25,971 nt of DNA from a virus, in IMG/VR virus record IMGVR_UViG_3300032117_000136, positions 1-25,971 of that record. One strand, given 5' to 3'. The translations under genes were made by a program, and so were the position numbers. Within the stretch, counting starts at the first letter, position 1, and each line of letters starts with the position of its first letter. The notes below the pieces were generated by a model. The model was not told the DNA's origin, searched no databases, and saw only the letters and a program-made list of their open reading frames with translations. This document shows, one piece after another, positions 3-23,557 of this stretch.

Positions 3-3000
3 GCTGGACCTAGCGAACGCAATGAACCCAAACCAACTCGGACAAGTGCTGGTGAGCAGCAACCTGGAGTTGAGAACCTTCCTAACGGCAACGGAGAACG
101 AGTTCCCGTTCAACGTGCAGGTGAGCAAGTCGGACCCGAGGGCGGAGTCGGCGCTGAAGGAAACAAACCTTCAGGAATGGGTGAACCTAGCGGCGTCAGT
201 GGTAAACGTGTCGAGTCTAGAGTAAGTGATCGGCGTGGTCTTGAAACAGAGACGGCGCATCAAGTTACTTATGAGCCTCATTCGCAATCGGCATCAGTTG
301 GTACGTTAGTCCCACGTGGGTTGCAACAATCTATTGATACAGCACTAACCAAGCTAGAAGAGGCTGTAGGCCCCATTGATGATTATGTGGGTGAAGCCCT
401 ACGTATGAGTAATGATGAGCTGTACAAGGCGTTCTCTGCAGAACAGATTGATGCTCTTGCCTTGTCTATTCATAACGCCGAACAGGGCAGTGGATTCATC
501 ATTGGCGACCAGACAGGTATTGGTAAGGGCCGTGTTGTTGCAGGGATGATTAAGTACGCATTGGTCAATGGCAAGATCCCAATTTTTGTTACTGAGAAAC
601 CCAACTTGTATGCGGACATGATCCGAGACTTGGACGACATTGGGTTAACCAAAGAACTTGGTTTGGATGACAAAAAATCTAAGATCTTGGTCACGAACAC
701 AGATGATCCAGTCGAATATAAGTTATCCAGAGAAGAAGATGGAGAAAAGGTTGAACACAAATTTACACTTGTTTCTCCAGAAAAAGACGCTAAGACATTA
801 AAGGCTTTATTCCAGAAGATGATGAACGAGGACAGCATTGGTCCTTACAAAGTTATCTTTACAACATACAACCAGAATCAAACCCGTGGCGGTAGTGAAA
901 CAGACCGGATGCGGTTTACTAGTCACTTTGCTAATGGCAACTATGTGATTCTTGATGAGAGCCACAACGCAGGTGGTTCTGGTGAAGCCAAACCAAATGC
1001 AGAAGGTGAACCAGAAGTTGCAGGTCGTGCAGGCTTCTTCCGCAATCTGATTGGTAAATCATTCGGATCTTTCTTTTCGTCAGCCACTTATGCGAAAAGA
1101 CCGGAAGTTATGAGCTTGTATGCCAGCACGAACATGCGTCAGGCTGTAGATCATATTTCTCAACTTGCCAATGCCATCAAAGAGGGTGGCATCCCGATGC
1201 AGCAGATCGTGGCGAACATGCTGACTTCCGATGGTCAGTACATTCGCCGTGAACGCACCTTTGCTGGTGTGTCTTATGAAACAGTTCCTGTTGATGTAAA
1301 CAAAGAAACCGCAGAAAAGATGGCAACTTCTTTGCGGTCCATTCTGAGTTTTTCTCAAAATAAAGAAACAGCCATTAAAAACATCCAAGAAGAATTGGAT
1401 CAGATGGGTGAGGTCATTGACGGCAAACGCATAACAGCTGATATTGAGGGTGCTGAATTTGGCTCACGGATGCACAATTTGATCAATCAAATGTTGCTGT
1501 CCTTGAAAACTGCTGAGACAGTTAAGTTTGCTATTGAGAGGTTGAAAGCTGGTGAGAAGCCAGTGATCACGGTAGCCAACACAATGGGTTCATTCTTATC
1601 AGAATATGCCGAACTGAATGGAATCAAGAATGGTGATGCGATCAATTTGTCTTTCAAAGACATGTTCTTACGCTACCTTGAAAAGCAAAGAGAAGCAAAA
1701 ATCACCAACCCAAATGGTGAGAAAAGTTATATACGCCTTAGTGACGAACAGCTGGGACCAAAACTTGTCAAGCAGTTCAATGATATTAAGAGTTTCATTG
1801 AGAACGCTGGGTTTGGTTCGGCTCCTATGTCGCCCATCGACTACATGCACAATGAGCTGCGTAAGGCCAAATACAAAACGGACGAGATCACTGGCCGTAC
1901 AGTCATAGTTAATTATGCAGATGGGGTTCCCATCCTAGAGGGAAGAGATCCAAATACAAAACAACGTACCGCTGCAATTGATTCTTTCAACCGTGGTGAT
2001 ACCGATGTTTTGATCATTAATCAATCGGGTGCAACTGGTCTGTCGTTACATGCGTCAGAAAGGTTTGATGACCGGCGTAAACGTCACATGATCATTGCCC
2101 AAGCCGAGGCAAACATCGACACCCACATGCAAATGCTGGGCCGTGTTCACCGTACTGGTCAAGTTCTTGTCCCATCGTATTCACAAATGATGGCAGACAT
2201 TCCAGCTGAGATGCGCCCAGCAGCCGTTCTCATGAAGAAGATGGCTTCACTGAACGCCAACACCACAGCGTCCCGCAAGTCGGCTGTAACGGCTGAAGGT
2301 GTTGTTGACTTTATGAATGACTACGGCGGTAAAGTTGCTGCTGAGTATTTGGAAGATAACCCAGATGTATACGAACAGTTGGGCGGCAAGGAAACTATTA
2401 AGGGTATTCCCAAGCCAGAAGCTGCCACTGAAGACTTCATTCGTAAGTTAACGGGTGTTATCCCAACGCTTCCTTTGGAAACGCAAGAAAAGGTTTATAA
2501 AGACCTTACTGAGCGTTACAACGAATTGATTGAGCGTGAGAACAGCATGGGCACCAACAAGTTGGAAGCCAAAGCTCTTGACTTGGATGCTAAGACCATT
2601 GCATCTGCTCCGCTTACTGATCGCAAAGAAGGTGATTCAATCTTTGCAGCCCCAGCTAACATGGAAAAGGTTGACGTTAAACGCACTGTCATACCTTTTA
2701 CGAAAGATCAATTAATAGAGTTGGTTCATAAGAATGTTGGAACATTTTCTAGGACTGCTGGCAGAGAACACAATCAAAAATTAAAAGATGCGTTCATGCC
2801 GAAGTCGGATGAATTTGTAGCCAAACAAGTTCAAGAGATGACACTGGCTGGTAAAGAGCAGCCGGTTATCGACAAGGTTGAAAGCAACCAGCGTACTTTG
2901 AATACAAAGATAGCCGATATTCTGAACAACTATTTCATTGGATCATCTTACGCAGTCAAAGATCAGAACGGCCAGACTTTCTACGGCATTATCACCAACA

Positions 3001-6000
3001 TTGAGAACAAGGCCAAGACCAAAAATCCTGCTGCTTTGTCCAACTGGAAGATGACTATTGCTCTGGCTGATGGCGACGATAAGGCAATAACCATCAACTT
3101 TGGTGCGATTGACAAAACGATCACCTTGGAAAGAGAGAGTACTGCTCCTGTCTTTAACTTTGAGAAAGACACTTTCGAGCATGTGCCAATTGCAGATCTA
3201 TTTGATCGTGGTGCTGTATCTCGGCGTGAAAAACGCTGGATGATTACGGGCAACATCTTGGCTGGTTTTGCATCAGAGAATGGTGTTGGTCAGATCATTA
3301 CCTATACCAAGGAAGATGGGACAACGGGTCAGGGCGTATTGATGCCCAGAACTTATGATTTTGACAAAGCGCAGCAAGCCAAGCCGGTTTTGTTCAAAAA
3401 TGCAGCTGATGCAATCAGCTTCATGACTCAACATGATGGTGTGCTTTCATCGAGCTTCCCGAATCCCGGACTGAAAATCTCTTACCGGCGTGGTAATTAC
3501 ATATTTACAGTTCCTAAGAGCAAGAAGTCTGGCGGCTTCTTCTTTGGCAACGAAGGGTTTAGAGCTAAGTTTGGTGACTACTACAACGGCGTTAAGACGT
3601 TTAGCAGTGATAATCAAGCCCGTGATGCTATTGATTACATCATCAACCAAATGGGAGTGCCGTTAAAGGCCGAGACGAATGTTTCGACTGCTAGGCATTA
3701 CTATGGCCCCCGCCAGTTGCCTTCACTGGCCCCTGCTGGTAAGTCGATTCGTGCGCTAACTTCCGATATTCACCAGCGTCAGGTGCAGCAGCTGGCCGAA
3801 GCACGGCGTGGTTTCACCAAACTCAAGCGTGAGATCATCAAAGGCCGCGCTGGTATTGACACCCAGCGTCTGTTGACTGAACTCGATGAGCTTAGTCGAG
3901 ATCTGGCAGCAGACAAAAAGCTGACGGCAGAGAAGAAGACACGGCCTATCGACATTCATTTGAAGGCGTACAAAGAATTCGTTGCTGGCAATATCAGCAA
4001 GGATGTATTTGACGTTATTGATTGGATGTACCGCAACAAGCCTACGCTGCTGAACGGTTTGAGCTTGTCGGTGGTTAGTAAGCGCAAGAAGAGTGAGGAA
4101 GGTGGGGCTGGGGCGTTTTGGCACGCAGATCGTTTGATTCGTCTTTTCAAAGATTCAGGCGCTAGAGATCCATCTACGATTCGCCATGAGCTGATGCACG
4201 CTTTAGAGCAGCTGATGGACCCGCAAACCCGTGCTGCTGTCATTGACGCTTGGAAAAAGAGCTTTGAGGCGGCGATTAAGAAGCACACAGACGCTAAATC
4301 TCAAGAGTATTTCCATGCCGTACTGGATTACATCAATGATCCTACTCCGGATAAGATGGAACATGCCTTTAGTATCAATCCAAATATTGATTTCTATCAA
4401 TACTTTGATCCGTCAGAGTACTGGGCGGTCAATGCCGAGAGCTTGCTGGCTGCGAAAATGGGCACCCCTTGGGTTCGTTTCGTTAACTCGATCAAGTTCA
4501 TGATAGAAGGCATGAAAGCAGTTCTTGGCTTTGATAACCGCTTTGCTGTTCATCAAGCCTTTAACAATATATTGAAAGGTGAAGGCAAGTTTGTCACTGA
4601 AATGCAGTTGCGTGACTTTGTGTATAAAGGGTCTTTCAAGCCGACTTTCTTGTTGAGTGTCCAGAAGGTGGATGACACGCTGAATAAGTTTGGCCGTCCA
4701 CATACGCCTATCCATGTGTCTAACACTGTGATGGATCGTTTGCTGGGTGGCATCCAAGAGGCCAAGCGCATCGGTGCCAACATGGTTGGTCAACCCAAGA
4801 TGGCTGTCAACAACATGGTTGGCGGCTTGGACCGTGGCCTGCTCTACACCCGTGTAAAGAACACCGACTTCACGGCAGGCTTAACGGCTGCAGACCGTGG
4901 TAAGTACGGCCATATGCTGGAAGATAGTCACGGCAAGGCGATTGCTTCTGTGTCTATGAATCAGGCACTGAAGGCGGCTCGTATCGGCACTCAGGTGATC
5001 ATGAAGGGCAAGCTCTTGTTTGACCCAGCAACGCAGATGTTCCGTGCTGTGTCTGACAAGTTCTCGATGGCTAACGTCCTGACGGCCAAGCATGAGCTGG
5101 AAAAGCAGCTGGGCGCACAACGGGCAGCTGACTTGATCAATGGCTACTTTGAGGCCAAGCGTTCACGTTCGATTATCAATGAGTTCTTGAAGCGTGAAGG
5201 CCAGCTGGAAGACTTAAAGAATGAGCAGTTGGACCCCAACACCTCTGCTAGTCGCCAGCTGCAACTGCTGTCTGACATTGCCGAGGCCGAAGAAGATCTC
5301 AAGCGCATCAACACCGCCAAACAAAAAGTCAACATGAGCGATGATGAGATTGATGAGTTCTCTGACTTTGAGAAGGACTATCCAGAACTCCGCACGATGA
5401 TGGACAACTGGAACAGCGTCAACAAGAACATGGTTGACAACATGGAACACGCACGGATCATCAGCAAGCAACGTGCTGATACCTTGCGGGATATTGAAGA
5501 CTATGTGCCTTGGCAGCGTATCCAAGATGAGCAAAACGATCCCCATGCGCCTGTATACGGCTCCAAGGGTGTGCGTAACATCAACCGTGAGTCTAAGTTT
5601 AAAGAAGGCGAAACGGACAAGGATATCGACAACATTGTGGATAACATGCTCCACAATGTGATGACGACCACCCGTAACTGCATTAAGAACTATGCAGCCA
5701 ACCGGATTGCCCAAGAGTATGCAACCCGCAACGACAAGGGCAAGATCAAGGTATTCCCCAAGGAAGACTTTAATCAAGGCATCATGAAGATCTTGGTGAA
5801 TGGTCGCAAGATCAACATCCAGATTGCTGACCCCTTGGTGGCTCAGTCTGTGATTGGTATTGAGCATATCCAGATCCCGATGAATGAGGCTCTGGCATAC
5901 CTCTCGAATGGTTTGCGCCGTTCGTTGACCTTCTCTGGCATCTTCCAGCTGAAGCAGTTGTTCATGGATGCACCAACGGCTGCGCTGGTTAGCGGTGTTA

Positions 6001-7523
6001 AGAACCCTGTTGCCCTGTATGGCGGCGTGTTCTCATCATTCCTGCGTGGCTTGCACCAGCACGATCCTATTGTGCAGCTGCTGAAGGAACACGGCATTGG
6101 TGGTTATCACTCTCAGGCCAGAACAGCTGAACATCAATACAAGCAAGAGATTGGGATTATCAATAAAGATAACTTCTCTCGTGTAACTGGCATCCTAGAC
6201 AAGATTGCAGATGCTTCAGACTTTGCCCAGCGTAGATCCATCTACATGCGGGTAATGAAGGAAACTGGCGGATATCCAAACGGTGGAGATCAGCGCCGAG
6301 CAATCCTGGCTGCGACCAACGTCATTGACTTTGACAAGCGTGGTGCTGGGGCAACTGCACAATTCCTGAACCGCACGATTGCTTTCATGAACGCTTACGC
6401 CCAGCAGCTGGACGTGCTGGCTCAGGCGCTTGCTGAACCTGTGGCTGGTGGTGTTGAGGCTCTGACAGGGGCTAAAGTGACCAGCGTGAGCGGTGGCCTG
6501 CGTGGTATTGATCGTCAGAAGGCAATCACTCGTTTGGCTATCACGGCTGGCTTGTTGGCAACAACTTGCCTGATGTACTCGATGGCCGTTGGTGATGACG
6601 ATGAATACAAGAAGATGGATGACCAGACGAAGATGCGTAATTTCGTCATTCCTCGTTCACTCATGAAGACGATTGGCTACGATCACACGCTGCTGATCCC
6701 CATGCACACATCGGCATCATTCTTCTTCAAGTCGATTCCTGAGTTGCTCTATAACAAGATTACGAAGGAAGGCACTAAGGATGCGATTGACAATACACGG
6801 CTGCGTACAGCTTTGAAGACTGCGGCCATTGATGCGCTGCTGGGTCCTTTGACAACGCCTATCCCAACGGGTATCAAGCCTTTTGCTGAAGTGGCTTTGA
6901 ACCATGACTTCTACACTGGCGGTCAGATCACGCCTGAGACAATGAAGCACTTGGCTCCATACAGACAATACAGCGCCAGCACTTCAGAGTTGGGCAAGTG
7001 GTTGAGCTATGCCAGCGGCTTGGGATCTGATGAGCATCGGCTGTTGAACCCTATGGAGGCTGATCACGTCATGAAGGGCTTGGCGGGTAGCGTGGCCTCT
7101 ATTTCGATGTGGGGATCTAATCTGTTTAACGGTACTAGACCAGCCCCAGAAGAGCGCAGTAACATCCTCTACGGCTCGTTTGTGGCTCCTGAAGTGCCTC
7201 GTGGACGGGAAGACCTGTTCTATGACCTGAAGACCCGTGCTGAAACTGATCACGGCACTTATATGGATCTGATGAAGAAAGGCCATAAAGAAGAAGCCCA
7301 GCAGTGGTTTAAAGACCATGCAGGGACGATCAAGGCTTACGGCTTTGTTGAGTCGATGGGCCATGAGCTAACGACCCTCAACGGGGAGATCCGTAGAATT
7401 GAAGATCTGCCGGAATCCAAGATGTCTGCTCAAGAAAAGCGTGACCGTATCACGAAGTTCAAGAACATCAAGGAAGATATCTTGGCTAAGACGATTCAGT
7501 TCCGTCTAAAAGCCGAACAATAA
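3..7523 (+). CDS. Giant polyvalent phage protein (helicase, metallopeptidase, LPD38-like), 5' end outside window
   Basis: The frame is open from base 3 without a stop, so the gene begins left of the window; the first Met here (177) lies in a Gly/Pro/Glu-rich linker and is probably not the start. Residues are counted from that Met. A strawberry-notch-like SF2 helicase has its Walker A GDQTGIGKGR near residue 110, DESH near 260 and motif VI GRVHRTGQ at 655-662. A zinc-protease motif HELMH lies at 1337-1341 (4185-4199). A coiled, charged region follows at about 1680-1800, then a hydrophobic segment at about 2116-2138 before an LPD38-like tail with a PIPTGIKPFAEVALN stretch. DarB-like and polyvalent phage proteins of this build are thought to be injected with the DNA to protect or remodel it. 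The 3' end overlaps the convergent RusA gene by 38 bp. The helicase and protease motifs are read directly; the virion role is inferred from the family. Confidence 0.9.
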   Translation, partial: AGPSERNEPKPTRTSAGEQQPGVENLPNGNGERVPVQRAGEQVGPEGGVGAEGNKPSGMGEPSGVSGKRVESRVSDRRGLETETAHQVTYEPHSQSASVGTLVPRGLQQSIDTALTKLEEAVGPIDDYVGEALRMSNDELYKAFSAEQIDALALSIHNAEQGSGFIIGDQTGIGKGRVVAGMIKYALVNGKIPIFVTEKPNLYADMIRDLDDIGLTKELGLDDKKSKILVTNTDDPVEYKLSREEDGEKVEHKFTLVSPEKDAKTLKALFQKMMNEDSIGPYKVIFTTYNQNQTRGGSETDRMRFTSHFANGNYVILDESHNAGGSGEAKPNAEGEPEVAGRAGFFRNLIGKSFGSFFSSATYAKRPEVMSLYASTNMRQAVDHISQLANAIKEGGIPMQQIVANMLTSDGQYIRRERTFAGVSYETVPVDVNKETAEKMATSLRSILSFSQNKETAIKNIQEELDQMGEVIDGKRITADIEGAEFGSRMHNLINQMLLSLKTAETVKFAIERLKAGEKPVITVANTMGSFLSEYAELNGIKNGDAINLSFKDMFLRYLEKQREAKITNPNGEKSYIRLSDEQLGPKLVKQFNDIKSFIENAGFGSAPMSPIDYMHNELRKAKYKTDEITGRTVIVNYADGVPILEGRDPNTKQRTAAIDSFNRGDTDVLIINQSGATGLSLHASERFDDRRKRHMIIAQAEANIDTHMQMLGRVHRTGQVLVPSYSQMMADIPAEMRPAAVLMKKMASLNANTTASRKSAVTAEGVVDFMNDYGGKVAAEYLEDNPDVYEQLGGKETIKGIPKPEAATEDFIRKLTGVIPTLPLETQEKVYKDLTERYNELIERENSMGTNKLEAKALDLDAKTIASAPLTDRKEGDSIFAAPANMEKVDVKRTVIPFTKDQLIELVHKNVGTFSRTAGREHNQKLKDAFMPKSDEFVAKQVQEMTLAGKEQPVIDKVESNQRTLNTKIADILNNYFIGSSYAVKDQNGQTFYGIITNIENKAKTKNPAALSNWKMTIALADGDDKAITINFGAIDKTITLERESTAPVFNFEKDTFEHVPIADLFDRGAVSRREKRWMITGNILAGFASENGVGQIITYTKEDGTTGQGVLMPRTYDFDKAQQAKPVLFKNAADAISFMTQHDGVLSSSFPNPGLKISYRRGNYIFTVPKSKKSGGFFFGNEGFRAKFGDYYNGVKTFSSDNQARDAIDYIINQMGVPLKAETNVSTARHYYGPRQLPSLAPAGKSIRALTSDIHQRQVQQLAEARRGFTKLKREIIKGRAGIDTQRLLTELDELSRDLAADKKLTAEKKTRPIDIHLKAYKEFVAGNISKDVFDVIDWMYRNKPTLLNGLSLSVVSKRKKSEEGGAGAFWHADRLIRLFKDSGARDPSTIRHELMHALEQLMDPQTRAAVIDAWKKSFEAAIKKHTDAKSQEYFHAVLDYINDPTPDKMEHAFSINPNIDFYQYFDPSEYWAVNAESLLAAKMGTPWVRFVNSIKFMIEGMKAVLGFDNRFAVHQAFNNILKGEGKFVTEMQLRDFVYKGSFKPTFLLSVQKVDDTLNKFGRPHTPIHVSNTVMDRLLGGIQEAKRIGANMVGQPKMAVNNMVGGLDRGLLYTRVKNTDFTAGLTAADRGKYGHMLEDSHGKAIASVSMNQALKAARIGTQVIMKGKLLFDPATQMFRAVSDKFSMANVLTAKHELEKQLGAQRAADLINGYFEAKRSRSIINEFLKREGQLEDLKNEQLDPNTSASRQLQLLSDIAEAEEDLKRINTAKQKVNMSDDEIDEFSDFEKDYPELRTMMDNWNSVNKNMVDNMEHARIISKQRADTLRDIEDYVPWQRIQDEQNDPHAPVYGSKGVRNINRESKFKEGETDKDIDNIVDNMLHNVMTTTRNCIKNYAANRIAQEYATRNDKGKIKVFPKEDFNQGIMKILVNGRKINIQIADPLVAQSVIGIEHIQIPMNEALAYLSNGLRRSLTFSGIFQLKQLFMDAPTAALVSGVKNPVALYGGVFSSFLRGLHQHDPIVQLLKEHGIGGYHSQARTAEHQYKQEIGIINKDNFSRVTGILDKIADASDFAQRRSIYMRVMKETGGYPNGGDQRRAILAATNVIDFDKRGAGATAQFLNRTIAFMNAYAQQLDVLAQALAEPVAGGVEALTGAKVTSVSGGLRGIDRQKAITRLAITAGLLATTCLMYSMAVGDDDEYKKMDDQTKMRNFVIPRSLMKTIGYDHTLLIPMHTSASFFFKSIPELLYNKITKEGTKDAIDNTRLRTALKTAAIDALLGPLTTPIPTGIKPFAEVALNHDFYTGGQITPETMKHLAPYRQYSASTSELGKWLSYASGLGSDEHRLLNPMEADHVMKGLAGSVASISMWGSNLFNGTRPAPEERSNILYGSFVAPEVPRGREDLFYDLKTRAETDHGTYMDLMKKGHKEEAQQWFKDHAGTIKAYGFVESMGHELTTLNGEIRRIEDLPESKMSAQEKRDRITKFKNIKEDILAKTIQFRLKAEQ

Positions 7524-15590: not shown

Positions 15591-15725
15591 TGTGATTGAT
15601 GATGGTGTAGCTCAACAAGGCGCTGGCATATATTGAAACCAGCTAGTCGGCAGACGAAGATGCGGTAGAGCGGCCTCGGCAGGGGACGGTTACGGGTTCG
15701 ATTCCCGTCGCCATCATCAATCACA
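15591..15725 (+). ncRNA. tRNA-like domain closed by a 17-bp helix
   Basis: A perfect T-arm (ACGGG, TTCGATT, CCCGT at 15692-15708) is followed by CGCCATC, which pairs with GATGGTG at 15601-15607 as a 7-bp acceptor stem. TA and GCTC (15610-15613) pair with GAGC (15668-15671) as a D stem, with the typical GGTAGAGC. The D loop carries an insert of about 45 bases with its own GCTGG/CCAGC hairpin. Only 20 bases separate D and T stems, too few for a normal anticodon arm. The acceptor helix continues outward for ten more pairs to 15591 and 15725. It is therefore tRNA-derived but probably not a functional tRNA; it may be a folded domain of the larger RNA. Confidence 0.65.
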
Positions 15726-19963: not shown

Positions 19964-20148
19964 GCGGCCTCCATCATTTTGTTTTCAGAGACAAACACTT
20001 CTGTCCATTCACCGTCATGCAGCCAATCGTCACCTTCAAGGCGGTGCATTTCTTTCCACGCTAGGTTTTCGGCATCGGCTTCGTCTTCGGCATCTACATA
20101 AACGTCAACGTGCGTCACATAGCGCAAAGTTACTGTATAGCTTTTCAT
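19960..20148 (-). CDS. Small acidic hypothetical protein, 62 aa
   Basis: The start chosen is ATG at 20148, with GAGGTGA eight bases upstream supplied by the last copy of the 39-bp repeat in the preceding gene. The 62 residues read MKSYTVTLRYVTHVDVYVDA, then EDEADAENLAWKEMH and a GEWTEVFVSENKMMEAA end. It resembles phage proteins with a single beta-alpha-beta fold. The frame is open further upstream only because of the repeat array and would give a HFLQRHGRGDREG repeat, which is not credible. Function is unknown. Confidence 0.7.
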   Translation of the reverse strand: MKSYTVTLRYVTHVDVYVDAEDEADAENLAWKEMHRLEGDDWLHDGEWTEVFVSENKMMEAA

Positions 20149-20399
20149 TCGGTCACCTCTTCCATGTCTTTGTAGAACATGGCCTTCGCGGTCACCTCTT
20201 CCATGTCTTTGTAGAAAATGGCCTTCGCGGTCACCTCTTCCATGTCTTTGTAGAAAATGGCCTTCGTAGGCCGTGTAAAGCCGCATATGGTGGCGTCAGT
20301 TTCCATGACGTATTCCAAGTCGTTCAGAGCGTTGTCGAGCGCCACTTGAGGGGTTTCCCCCTCTACCAGTAGCGTTACAGATACTTTGTAGATTTTCAT
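20145..20399 (-). CDS. Small protein with three 13-residue C-terminal repeats
   Basis: The 84 residues start MKIYKVSVTLLVEGETPQVA, continue DNALNDLEYVMETDATICGF and end in three copies of the 13-residue unit AKAIFYKDMEEVT (the last with Met for Ile). The core resembles the beta-alpha-beta small proteins nearby. An in-frame ATG at 20411 would add four residues; neither start has a strong ribosome binding site. The repeat DNA also encodes AGAGGTGA in each unit, the Shine-Dalgarno sequence of the next gene. Confidence 0.7.
   Translation of the reverse strand: MKIYKVSVTLLVEGETPQVALDNALNDLEYVMETDATICGFTRPTKAIFYKDMEEVTAKAIFYKDMEEVTAKAMFYKDMEEVTE
20151..20267 (-). repeat. Tandem repeat, 3 x 39 bp
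   Basis: Three units of 39 bp (starting at 20151, 20190 and 20229 on the plus strand) are nearly identical; copy 1 differs by AACAT in place of AAAAT. The period is 13 codons, so the frame is kept. Each unit contains GAAGAGGTGACC on the minus strand. Confidence 0.92.
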
Positions 20400-20839: not shown

Positions 20840-20852
20840 AGGGTTCTCCTAG

Positions 20853-20959
20853 CAGTTAATCAAAGACAAGTAACCAATTTGCGGACTCATGCCAAGGGCA
20901 ATTTGCGGACTCATGGTTACTTGTTTCGTCCTTCAGGACTCATCAGTTTGATACGACTG
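20853..20959 (-). ncRNA. Type I hammerhead ribozyme (HHR1)
   Basis: On the minus strand from 20952: stem I AUCAAA, core CUGAUGA (20946-20940), and stem II GUCC-UGAA-GGAC follow. GAAA (20927-20924) comes next, then a 10-bp stem III CAAGUAACCA/UGGUUACUUG with a 37-base loop, then UC and stem I UUUGAU (20864-20859). All invariant positions (C3 U4 G5 A6, G8 A9, G12 A13 A14, A15.1-U16.1, C17) fit, and cleavage is expected between 20865 and 20864. Stem I extends through an internal loop by CAGU (20959-20956) and ACUG (20856-20853). The open stem is stem I, so it is type I. The fold is read directly from sequence; activity is untested. Confidence 0.92.
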
Positions 20960-21494
20960 TATGCTCACGTTCTTTCCACTTGGGGATACGCACCTTGAAA
21001 CCGTGTGGTGTCTTGAAGGCGGTAGTTCCGGCATCGGGTTCATAGTAAAAGGTATCCAATGCACCAAGGCCCATAAACCGCAGCGGCTTGGCAAACTTCA
21101 CCATTGCACCAGCTTTGACCTTCACGGCCTTCTTTTCCAGCTTGGCACGGCAGCTGGCTCGCCACTTCAATGCGAATTCGCTTGTAGTTGGATACAGGGT
21201 GTCCAGCTTGTCTAGCAGCTTCTTGGGTGCATCGGTGTAGTAGGGGCCACAGGACTCGCCCATGTCCTTGTAGCCTATCTGCCCATCCTTGCGAGAAATG
21301 AGGATAACCATCCCTTCGCCATGCGTCATGTTGGTGTTCTTGTTCAGACAATGCTGAATGCAATAAACCACGTTGCCACGCACAGATACGTCAGTTATCC
21401 ACCATTTGCCACGTTCGTTATCTTCTGAGAATTCATTGACAATGAAATCCTTGGTTGTCAGCCCATAGTCGTTTTGAAATAGCCAGCCCATCAT
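20943..21494 (-). CDS. Hypothetical phage protein with stop codon inside a hammerhead core
   Basis: The 183-residue soluble protein starts MMGWLFQNDYGLTTKDFIVN with GAAAGGA upstream of the ATG at 21494. It contains a GKWWITDVSVRGNVVYCIQH beta-rich stretch and ends IPKWKEREHTVVSN. I know no function, though the style resembles phage proteins of about 180 residues next to small membrane genes. The final codons lie in stem I of the hammerhead and the stop UGA is exactly U4 G5 A6 of the ribozyme core. The previous gene's stop overlaps its start (ATGA). Confidence 0.75.
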   Translation of the reverse strand: MMGWLFQNDYGLTTKDFIVNEFSEDNERGKWWITDVSVRGNVVYCIQHCLNKNTNMTHGEGMVILISRKDGQIGYKDMGESCGPYYTDAPKKLLDKLDTLYPTTSEFALKWRASCRAKLEKKAVKVKAGAMVKFAKPLRFMGLGALDTFYYEPDAGTTAFKTPHGFKVRIPKWKEREHTVVSN

Positions 21495-21670
21495 TCTTTC
21501 CTTTCATAGCATTGTTCGAGCAGCGGCTCGATTTTGATAAATGTCACAGGGTCAATGGTCAGCCAATTGGTCTGGCCTTTCTCTGAGCGTATTTGCAATC
21601 TCAGCTCACCGCATTTTTCGGGCGGCAGCGGGCAGACCTGCATGAGTTGTTTTGAGATATAGGTTTCCAT
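21491..21670 (-). CDS. Small hypothetical protein, 59 aa
   Basis: The ATG at 21670 has a strong GAGGAG ribosome binding site seven bases upstream. The 59 residues read METYISKQLMQVCPLPPEKC, then GELRLQIRSEKGQTNWLTID, and PVTFIKIEPLLEQCYERKE. It looks like a small beta-rich fold with three cysteines. The TGA overlaps the next gene's start. Function is unknown. Confidence 0.68.
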   Translation of the reverse strand: METYISKQLMQVCPLPPEKCGELRLQIRSEKGQTNWLTIDPVTFIKIEPLLEQCYERKE

Positions 21671-21673
21671 TGG

Positions 21674-21865
21674 TTACTCCTCATTAACATCAAGGGCTTC
21701 AAAAGACCCGACACGGTTGCCGTTGGTGTCGTAGATGTAACCGTGTTCTTGTTGGTTTTGCAGCTTGGCAATCACGGCCTTCAGGTTGGATTCGATTTCC
21801 AACAGGTAATTGGGGTATTCATAGGCATCATTCTCTGTATTGATTTCAATAACAAACTTGTTCAT
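21674..21865 (-). CDS. Small hypothetical protein, 63 aa
   Basis: The 63 residues start MNKFVIEINTENDAYEYPNY, then LLEIESNLKAVIAKLQNQQE, and end in GSFEALDVNEE. Layout is a short beta strand, a helix and an acidic C-terminus, typical of phage small proteins that end in an N-G-N-x-x-G-x-F-x-x-x turn. The ATG overlaps the preceding stop, and its last codons (GATGTTAATGAGGAGTAAC) carry the ribosome binding site of the next gene. Function is unknown. Confidence 0.72.
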   Translation of the reverse strand: MNKFVIEINTENDAYEYPNYLLEIESNLKAVIAKLQNQQEHGYIYDTNGNRVGSFEALDVNEE

Positions 21866-22056
21866 GATTCCATTCCTAGCATTGTGTTGAGTTGTTCGTA
21901 TACGGATTTCTTTGACCCTTTGAGGCCAAGTTCGTCCTTGATGATTGCGTAGGCAGAGCGCCCACGCCGTTTCAGACCCTTGAGTTCGAGGCGCAACATC
22001 TGGCGCAAGGTCAGCAGCCGATACACGGCTATTTGGTCGGGCGTCTCCAGCATCAT
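21862..22056 (-). CDS. Small basic hypothetical protein, 64 aa
   Basis: The start is the first of two adjacent ATG codons (22056, 22053), right after the stop of the upstream gene; the longer frame from 22176 lies inside that gene. The 64 residues read MMLETPDQIAVYRLLTLRQM, then LRLELKGLKRRGRSAYAIIK, and DELGLKGSKKSVYEQLNTML. The helices and basic patch (KRRGRSAY) and a GSKKSVYEQL helix resemble a small DNA- or RNA-binding protein, but I cannot name the family. Confidence 0.65.
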   Translation of the reverse strand: MMLETPDQIAVYRLLTLRQMLRLELKGLKRRGRSAYAIIKDELGLKGSKKSVYEQLNTMLGMES

Positions 22057-22057
22057 G

Positions 22058-22423
22058 TCAATACTCCGAAGGCAGCATGAGGACGTTATCAGCCAGATAG
22101 AATTTCCACAGACCCGTTGGGCAGTCGGTGTAATCAACCTTCTCAACACACAGGGTGTTGCAGTCACCATCCTCAAACGTGATGGTGGCCTTGTCTTTCA
22201 GGACAGACAAGCAGATAACCAAGAACGGCTCTTTCTTGAGTGCAGGGCGTTGTTTGACGTTGATGGCAATCAGGTCAATGAACCAGTAAGCATGGGCGTT
22301 ATCAACGAAGTATTGGACACCATCGGTATGCACCATATCAGGGGCAAACAATGGGTTTGTTCGGTGATAGTTTTCAGTTCCAATAAAATGGTGAAGGTTG
22401 TCAATTAGTTCAGCGGTTTGCAT
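22058..22423 (-). CDS. DUF6876-like protein
   Basis: The 121-residue protein matches the DUF6876 pattern: FIGTENYHR near the start, HTDGVQYFVDNAHAYWFIDL in the centre, and KVDYTDCPTGLWKFYLADNV ending with LMLPSEY. The family is common in phages and mobile elements but has no established function. The start at 22423 follows GAGG of a 10-bp palindrome CTCAATTGAG (22432-22441), so the ribosome binding site could be hidden in a small hairpin. The hammerhead at 22445-22493 sits in its leader. Confidence 0.78.
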   Translation of the reverse strand: MQTAELIDNLHHFIGTENYHRTNPLFAPDMVHTDGVQYFVDNAHAYWFIDLIAINVKQRPALKKEPFLVICLSVLKDKATITFEDGDCNTLCVEKVDYTDCPTGLWKFYLADNVLMLPSEY

Positions 22424-22444
22424 AGTTAATCCTCAATTGAGTTA

Positions 22445-22493
22445 GTCAAAGACCCCTTGCGGGGTTTCGGCCTTTTGGCCTCATCAGTTTGAC
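22445..22493 (-). ncRNA. Minimal type I hammerhead ribozyme (HHR2)
   Basis: On the minus strand, GUCAAA, core CUGAUGA (22487-22481), stem II GGCC-AAAA-GGCC, GAAA (22468-22465), stem III CCCC-GCAA-GGGG, UC, then UUUGAC (22450-22445). All conserved hammerhead positions are present and every stem is fully paired in 49 bases. Cleavage is predicted between 22451 and 22450. The element starts two bases after the stop codon of the upstream gene and lies 21 bases before the start of the downstream one. Stem I is the open stem (type I). Confidence 0.94.
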
Positions 22494-23525: not shown

Positions 23526-23557
23526 GTCTAAACTCCTAGCAGTTGGTTGTTTTGCGT

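Follow-up and report, generated by a model that had tools for sequence, protein, structure and literature searches.

Whether a self-cleaving ribozyme can sense translation of the gene that ends inside it is the question raised by one gene junction in a virus record of the IMG/VR collection (IMGVR_UViG_3300032117_000136). The window, that is, the whole stretch of DNA analyzed, comprised positions 1 to 25,971 of this 26-kb record. On its minus strand, a hammerhead ribozyme, HHR2, had been predicted between a DUF6927 gene and an uncharacterized gene, with the stop codon of the former lying in the catalytic core. The original prediction proposed that a ribosome reading or stopping there would prevent the ribozyme from folding, so that cleavage could be tied to translation of the upstream gene.

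Inspection of the minus strand revealed that all predicted coordinates and stems of HHR2 were correct (Table 1). The element has the type I core (CUGANGA...GAA, an A15.1-U16.1 pair and an H17 cleavage site) in the form CUGAUGA, GAAA, U16.1 and C17. Of its three helices, stem I is open and stems II and III are closed by loops. HHR2 lies in the untranslated gap, and the downstream ORF follows a short leader (25 nt, AGGAG). The loop of stem III contains CATGAGTCCGCAAATTG twice, at a spacing of 24 nt. The two copies represent a 24-nt tandem duplication (20875-20915, minus strand) that has no other copy in the window, is absent in L005 (collected loci are designated by L numbers), and keeps a small frame, MSPQIALGMSPQIGYLSLINC*, open past the cleavage site.

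Table 1. Features of the HHR2 locus and its operon. Positions are those of the window.
Feature	Position	Strand	Remarks
HHR2, type I hammerhead ribozyme	20859..20952	-	proximal stem I to proximal stem I
HHR2 stem I, 6 bp	20952-20947 / 20864-20859	-	AUCAAA / UUUGAU
HHR2 catalytic core CUGAUGA	20940..20946	-	second UGA is U7 G8 A9
U4 G5 A6 of HHR2 core, UGA stop of 183-aa gene	20943..20945	-	retained in L003, L004, L005, L142/L301, L300, L302
Second in-frame UGA	20942-20940	-	directly after stop of 183-aa gene
HHR2 stem II, 4 bp	20928..20939	-	GUCC-UGAA-GGAC
HHR2 GAAA segment	20927-20924	-	
HHR2 stem III with long loop, 57 nt	20867..20923	-	CAAGUAACC...GGUUACUUG; at least 9 contiguous bp
U16.1 C17 of HHR2	20866-20865	-	
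HHR2 predicted cleavage site	C17 (20865) / U (20864)	-	from hammerhead chemistry
Predicted 25-nt 5'-OH leader of downstream mRNA	20840..20864	-	Shine-Dalgarno AGGAG; recurrent leader motif AACTGCTAGGAG
Upstream gene, 183 aa	20943..21494	-	DUF6927 (PF21992), phrog_21047
Downstream gene, 144 aa	20405..20839	-	phrog_7971, uncharacterized; starts 25 nt after cleavage site
HHR1, type I hammerhead	22445..22493	-	core 22487-22481; predicted cleavage 22451/22450
1586-nt RNA segment between two predicted cuts	20865..22450	-	DUF6876, small ORFs, DUF6927; putative release

We evaluated HHR2 and its relatives using model R1, a covariance model trained on 45 other type I phage hammerheads, and using Rfam models. 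HHR1 scored 60.6 bits (E 4e-14) with R1 and 27 bits with RF02275, and the homologues of HHR2 scored 58-61 bits with R1. HHR2 itself scored 23.8 bits with R1 (22-24 bits overall), below Rfam gathering scores, because its stem III carries a 46-nt insert. Its best Rfam score was 22.3 bits, for RF00008 (gathering 48.5); the L005/L296 homologue reached 33.2 bits against the full RF00163 model (gathering 34). In the window, the core pattern matched HHR1 and HHR2 only. These two matches, versus 0.88 expected, are not significant alone, so the case for HHR2 is carried by its stems, homologues and covariation. The full type I detector yielded 396 matches in 2.65 Mb of collected loci and none in the same sequences reversed.

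Pair counts from R1 are not independent evidence because its training set was picked for complementarity. The unbiased covariation tests are the stem II pair that the pattern left free, which was Watson-Crick in 284 of the 284 type I matches listed, and stem I in the core-only matches: 187 of the 282 listed had a 6-bp stem I, versus 16 with shuffled partners. Among the relatives of HHR2, the stem II sequence GUCC/GGAC is changed to GACC/GGUC (L142/L301, L300), a compensatory change that keeps the pairing, and stem III is swapped for short hairpins of other sequence, again with pairing kept. In the predicted minimum-energy fold of HHR2, the native stem I is missing, and that region is paired in an alternative way. 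Overall, HHR2 is a real, canonical type I hammerhead whose cleavage is predicted from sequence.

Coordinates confirmed that the stop codon of the 183-aa gene is U4 G5 A6 of the core and that an in-frame UGA is next to it. Moreover, the codons UCA AAC UGA (Ser-Asn-stop) span stem I and the core, such that stem I is indeed built by the last codons of the gene. An alignment of relatives had been proposed as a check of whether stop and core stay fused. The fusion was kept in every ribozyme-bearing DUF6927 homologue (97% and ~41% protein identity), each of which ends ...Ser-Asn-UGA. Homologues lacking the ribozyme at this junction (L297, L298, L306, L299, L303-L305, L307) have other protein ends. 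With respect to the ribozyme-bearing loci, L003 is identical to the window locus. L004 shares ~96% identity with it across most of the region and has an identical ribozyme, while L005 is ~86% identical over the longest aligned stretch and has a ribozyme with C at N7 and a wholly different stem III (CCCC...GGGG). L142, which is the contig of L301, was found independently by the core-pattern scan: its DUF6927 protein is 41% identical, its downstream gene is the same, and stems II and III of its hammerhead are of other sequence and still paired. A profile search added two further ribozyme-bearing homologues, L300 and L302.

The second UGA, originally pointed out as part of the arrangement, is dispensable as it is lost in L005, where U7 is C; this rules out the double UGA as the point of the arrangement. 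Readthrough of UGA was likewise unsupported: the frame is open for 26 codons past both UGAs in the window, but relatives replace stem III. Downstream-gene homologues that lack DUF6927 upstream (L128, L129, L131, L132) gave no hammerhead match with R1, which shows the ribozyme to accompany the two genes as a pair. Annotated phage genomes contained no DNA match to the HHR2 locus, and a genome collection scanned with the DUF6927 alignment gave no match. N-terminal relatives of DUF6927 exist in Klebsiella phages; for L293, the one such relative examined, R1 gave no hammerhead match within the surrounding 3.3 kb.

The relationship between upstream genes and hammerheads was evaluated using viral contigs, in which three pattern scans, two of them yielding at least 120 matches each, gave at least ~330 hammerheads of type I and at least 100 of type III. 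As these counts are lower bounds and the search patterns prescribed U7 and the greater part of stem II, the sample is not random. Open reading frames were called by length only. Among the type I matches listed, upstream stops clustered at positions 0 (35), -4 (39), -9 (35) and -10 (25) relative to U4. As stem I was exactly 6 bp in 284 of the 331 type I hammerheads among the matches listed, the clustered stops sit in the core, in stem I or abutting stem I. For the null expectation, all three frames were read into hammerheads without a nearby ORF end, assuming random frames; the observed set consisted of 140 family-by-offset cases. Frames running through the core were avoided, at 8% observed (family bootstrap interval 3-12%) versus 41% expected. 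Stops were found at -10/-9 in 29% of cases versus 7% expected and at -8 to -3 in 28% versus 15%. Stops exactly at the core were not enriched, at 18% (interval 12-26%) versus 23% expected, and selection favouring a core stop was rejected on this basis. Based on these percentages, it is the passage of ribosomes through the core that is avoided, the core stop being the chance yield of a built-in UGA. Core stops occurred in 25 gene families among the type I matches listed; an early excess of 25 versus 11 families (p 1e-5 against one-third) is due to this avoidance of through-core frames and not to a preference for the core.

Within gene families, the offset was often kept, as among four members that are 71-98% identical and in a 479-aa pair sharing 89% identity; shifts occurred mostly at ~38-43% identity and also in closer pairs. 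In several gene families other than DUF6927, the ribozyme was kept while the stop had moved (-13/0, 0/-6, 0/-9, 0/-4). The TAA of the gene upstream of HHR1 is 12 nt before U4, and in L005 there is no upstream ORF stop near HHR1. Several loci have multiple hammerheads on one strand, at junctions between genes of a single predicted transcript: HHR1 and HHR2 in the window, and two or three in L299, L300, L301 and L303. In relatives, hammerheads at other junctions have U4 at 1487 and 2197 (L299) and at 1300 and 2043 (L303), with stops at 0 and -4. Sites therefore differ between junctions while the position rule is kept. As a rule, then, upstream genes terminate at type I hammerheads or shortly ahead of them and avoid running through them. 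Within this rule, the dual use of stop and core at HHR2 is economical, conserved in the DUF6927 lineage and ordinary in frequency. Accordingly, the premise of the original prediction, a conflict between translation and folding, is borne out by the scarcity of through-core frames, but the fusion as a special regulatory device is not, given the core-stop frequency, the shifted stops and the type III hammerheads. No published description of the positional rule or of the stop/core fusion was found among the open-access papers searched, which is weak evidence of novelty.

Type III phage hammerheads occur at the same kind of gene junction, with the upstream stop ~57 nt before U4. Because the type III cut precedes stem I and the core, the upstream product is left without ribozyme hairpins. 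The stretch from stop to cleavage site is a strong hairpin in these loci, with a mean z, based on dinucleotide shuffles, of -2.87 versus -0.45 for segments of equal length that follow other stops of these loci (p ~1e-19). Strong hairpins were seen in L092, L061, L037, L050 and other type III loci, several of which have GTGTCTTCAAAGACAC, or a sequence close to it, as stem and loop. The median distance from stop to cleavage site was 46 nt for type I and 39 nt for type III. Type I and type III hammerheads thus read as one design, in which the upstream message is hairpin-ended soon after its stop and the downstream message has a short 5'-OH leader.

A further claim concerned a distal 4-bp helix of stem I, beyond an internal loop, where type I hammerheads make tertiary contacts. 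The letters are present (CAGU 20959-20956, ACUG 20856-20853), but the helix is at chance level and is not conserved: distal stem I helices of at least 4 bp were found in 23% of type I hammerheads versus 24% with shuffled partners (331 among the matches listed), and the helix is absent from the L142/L301 homologue. It was rejected as a tertiary contact for these reasons. Pairing of loop II with the flanks of stem I, as a pseudoknot, showed no excess over shuffles. The A-G conserved at the outer end of stem I and the UNANU of loop II in type I hammerheads suggest themselves as better candidates for tertiary contacts than the distal helix.

The ACUG belongs to AACTGCTAGGAG, which is a repeated ribosome-binding leader. 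Exact minus-strand copies of this 12-nt sequence occur at 20846-20857 and 23533-23544 of the window and at 748-759, 2205-2216, 3568-3579 and 4214-4225 of L142. Allowing up to two mismatches, there were 7 matches in the window versus 1.85 expected. In several cases, the copies are just before a gene start, and they also occur at sites without a hammerhead. Among the type I matches listed, the leader after cleavage had a median length of 26 nt (277 hammerheads), and a Shine-Dalgarno-like match preceded 169 of the 277 downstream starts.

Three other observations were made in the window. At 15601-15716 (plus strand), an Rfam tRNA match of 33.7 bits, above gathering, has a 51-nt insertion in the D-arm; ARAGORN reports no tRNA there. 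Tandem in-frame repeats at 20145-20286 (minus strand) include three KAIFYKDMEEVTA-like copies, with GHFLQRHGRGDRE in another frame. Finally, a single 2448-aa ORF at 177-7523 (plus strand) has helicase-like motifs near its start and, by eye, is probably a large polyvalent phage protein.

Taken together, the data indicate that HHR2 probably splits an operon, as a type I hammerhead between two co-transcribed phage genes; the cleavage, end chemistry and effects on stability are deduced. The operon would have at least two such sites. At HHR2, the cut in the polycistronic RNA would fall 80 nt downstream of the first base of the DUF6927 stop, leaving an upstream mRNA that ends in stems II and III of HHR2 with a 2',3'-cyclic phosphate and a downstream mRNA that opens with a 5'-OH, the 25-nt leader, AGGAG and the start codon. 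Upstream genes end at or inside stem I, or shortly ahead of it, presumably because ribosomes must not cross the core. At HHR2, the frame fits: the obligatory UGA of the core serves as the stop, and the last codons encode stem I. Some delay of cleavage by translation is to be expected, as a terminating ribosome would transiently mask stem I and the core, and such a delay may plausibly have a regulatory role. The position rule and the type III hairpin rule provide a concrete, testable account of phage hammerheads, in which each cut would yield an upstream message capped by a hairpin and a downstream message with a short leader. Stops in the core, conserved in the DUF6927 lineage, are natural constructs for testing for competition between a ribosome and a small ribozyme on one RNA. 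The cut at HHR2 may also destabilize the downstream message rather than mature it, since an mRNA with a 5'-OH can be targeted for decay, glmS being an example (PMC3997798).

An alternative is that a ribosome translating the DUF6927 gene, or terminating on it, gates cleavage by covering stem I and the core, such that cutting reports upstream translation. Given the general footprint of a ribosome, one halted at U4 would lie over both, which counts for such gating. So do the location of the stop inside the core, at HHR2 as in all homologues with the ribozyme, the class-wide avoidance of through-core frames and the dual coding of stem I by the last codons. Nevertheless, core stops are no more frequent than in random frames, the ribozyme is kept with a moved stop in other gene families, and the type III stop is far from U4. 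Even in the same operon, the stop at HHR1 is outside the core, and none is near it in L005. We therefore consider gating unlikely. We hold the same doubt toward the narrower proposal that, in the DUF6927 lineage, the fusion has been kept since the terminating ribosome times cleavage, making the ribozyme a sensor of upstream translation. If true, this sensor would decide when the downstream message is released.

The remaining alternatives are less probable still. A decay switch, in which the 5'-OH end lowers expression of the downstream gene, has a precedent in the glmS ribozyme, which acts in this way via RNase J1 (PMC3997798), but the 3' product of HHR2 would retain its entire short leader, ribosome-binding site included, as is typical of the class, and there is no evident ligand-binding domain; we judge it quite improbable. 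It is very improbable that the 1586-nt RNA is freed by the two hammerheads and its ends ligated, for example by RtcB, to a circular or spliced RNA. The same-strand hammerheads do flank a block with compatible ends, and hammerhead-bounded blocks recur in relatives, but experiments on tandem phage hammerheads that sought such products detected none (PMC3088659). In addition, no constant unit is excised, as relatives differ in the number and place of hammerhead sites. Least credible is a chance resemblance or a dead remnant: the frequency of the bare core pattern and the low score due to the stem III insert are compatible with it, but homologues at 41% protein identity keep the core, the pairing and the stop despite changed stem sequences, and the detector was silent on reversed sequences.

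Tandem hammerheads of types I-III in phages and prophages were described by Perreault et al. in 2011, who proposed operon splitting; they cut co-transcripts in vitro, and one set did so in E. coli (PMC3088659). The role of phage hammerheads has been called an open question (PMC6155905). The elements of Perreault et al. have the same fold as HHR2, and several flank single genes or short gene blocks in phage transcripts. Stop codons have no occurrence in the main text of that study, whereas here the core is the upstream stop, the position rule is quantified and a type III hairpin rule is added. Among Rfam families, Hammerhead_1 (RF00163), in a clan with RF00008 and RF02275, is matched over its full model, just below gathering, by L005/L296, while HHR2 of the window differs by its 57-nt stem III. 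The glmS ribozyme-riboswitch similarly self-cleaves in an mRNA leader and leaves a 5'-OH on the downstream coding fragment, an end that marks the mRNA for decay in B. subtilis (PMC3997798). In contrast to HHR2, it has an unrelated fold and is ligand-dependent. To our knowledge, glmS does not overlap an upstream stop codon. HHR2 thus probably joins the operon-splitting hammerheads of phages, with a core that doubles as a stop codon.
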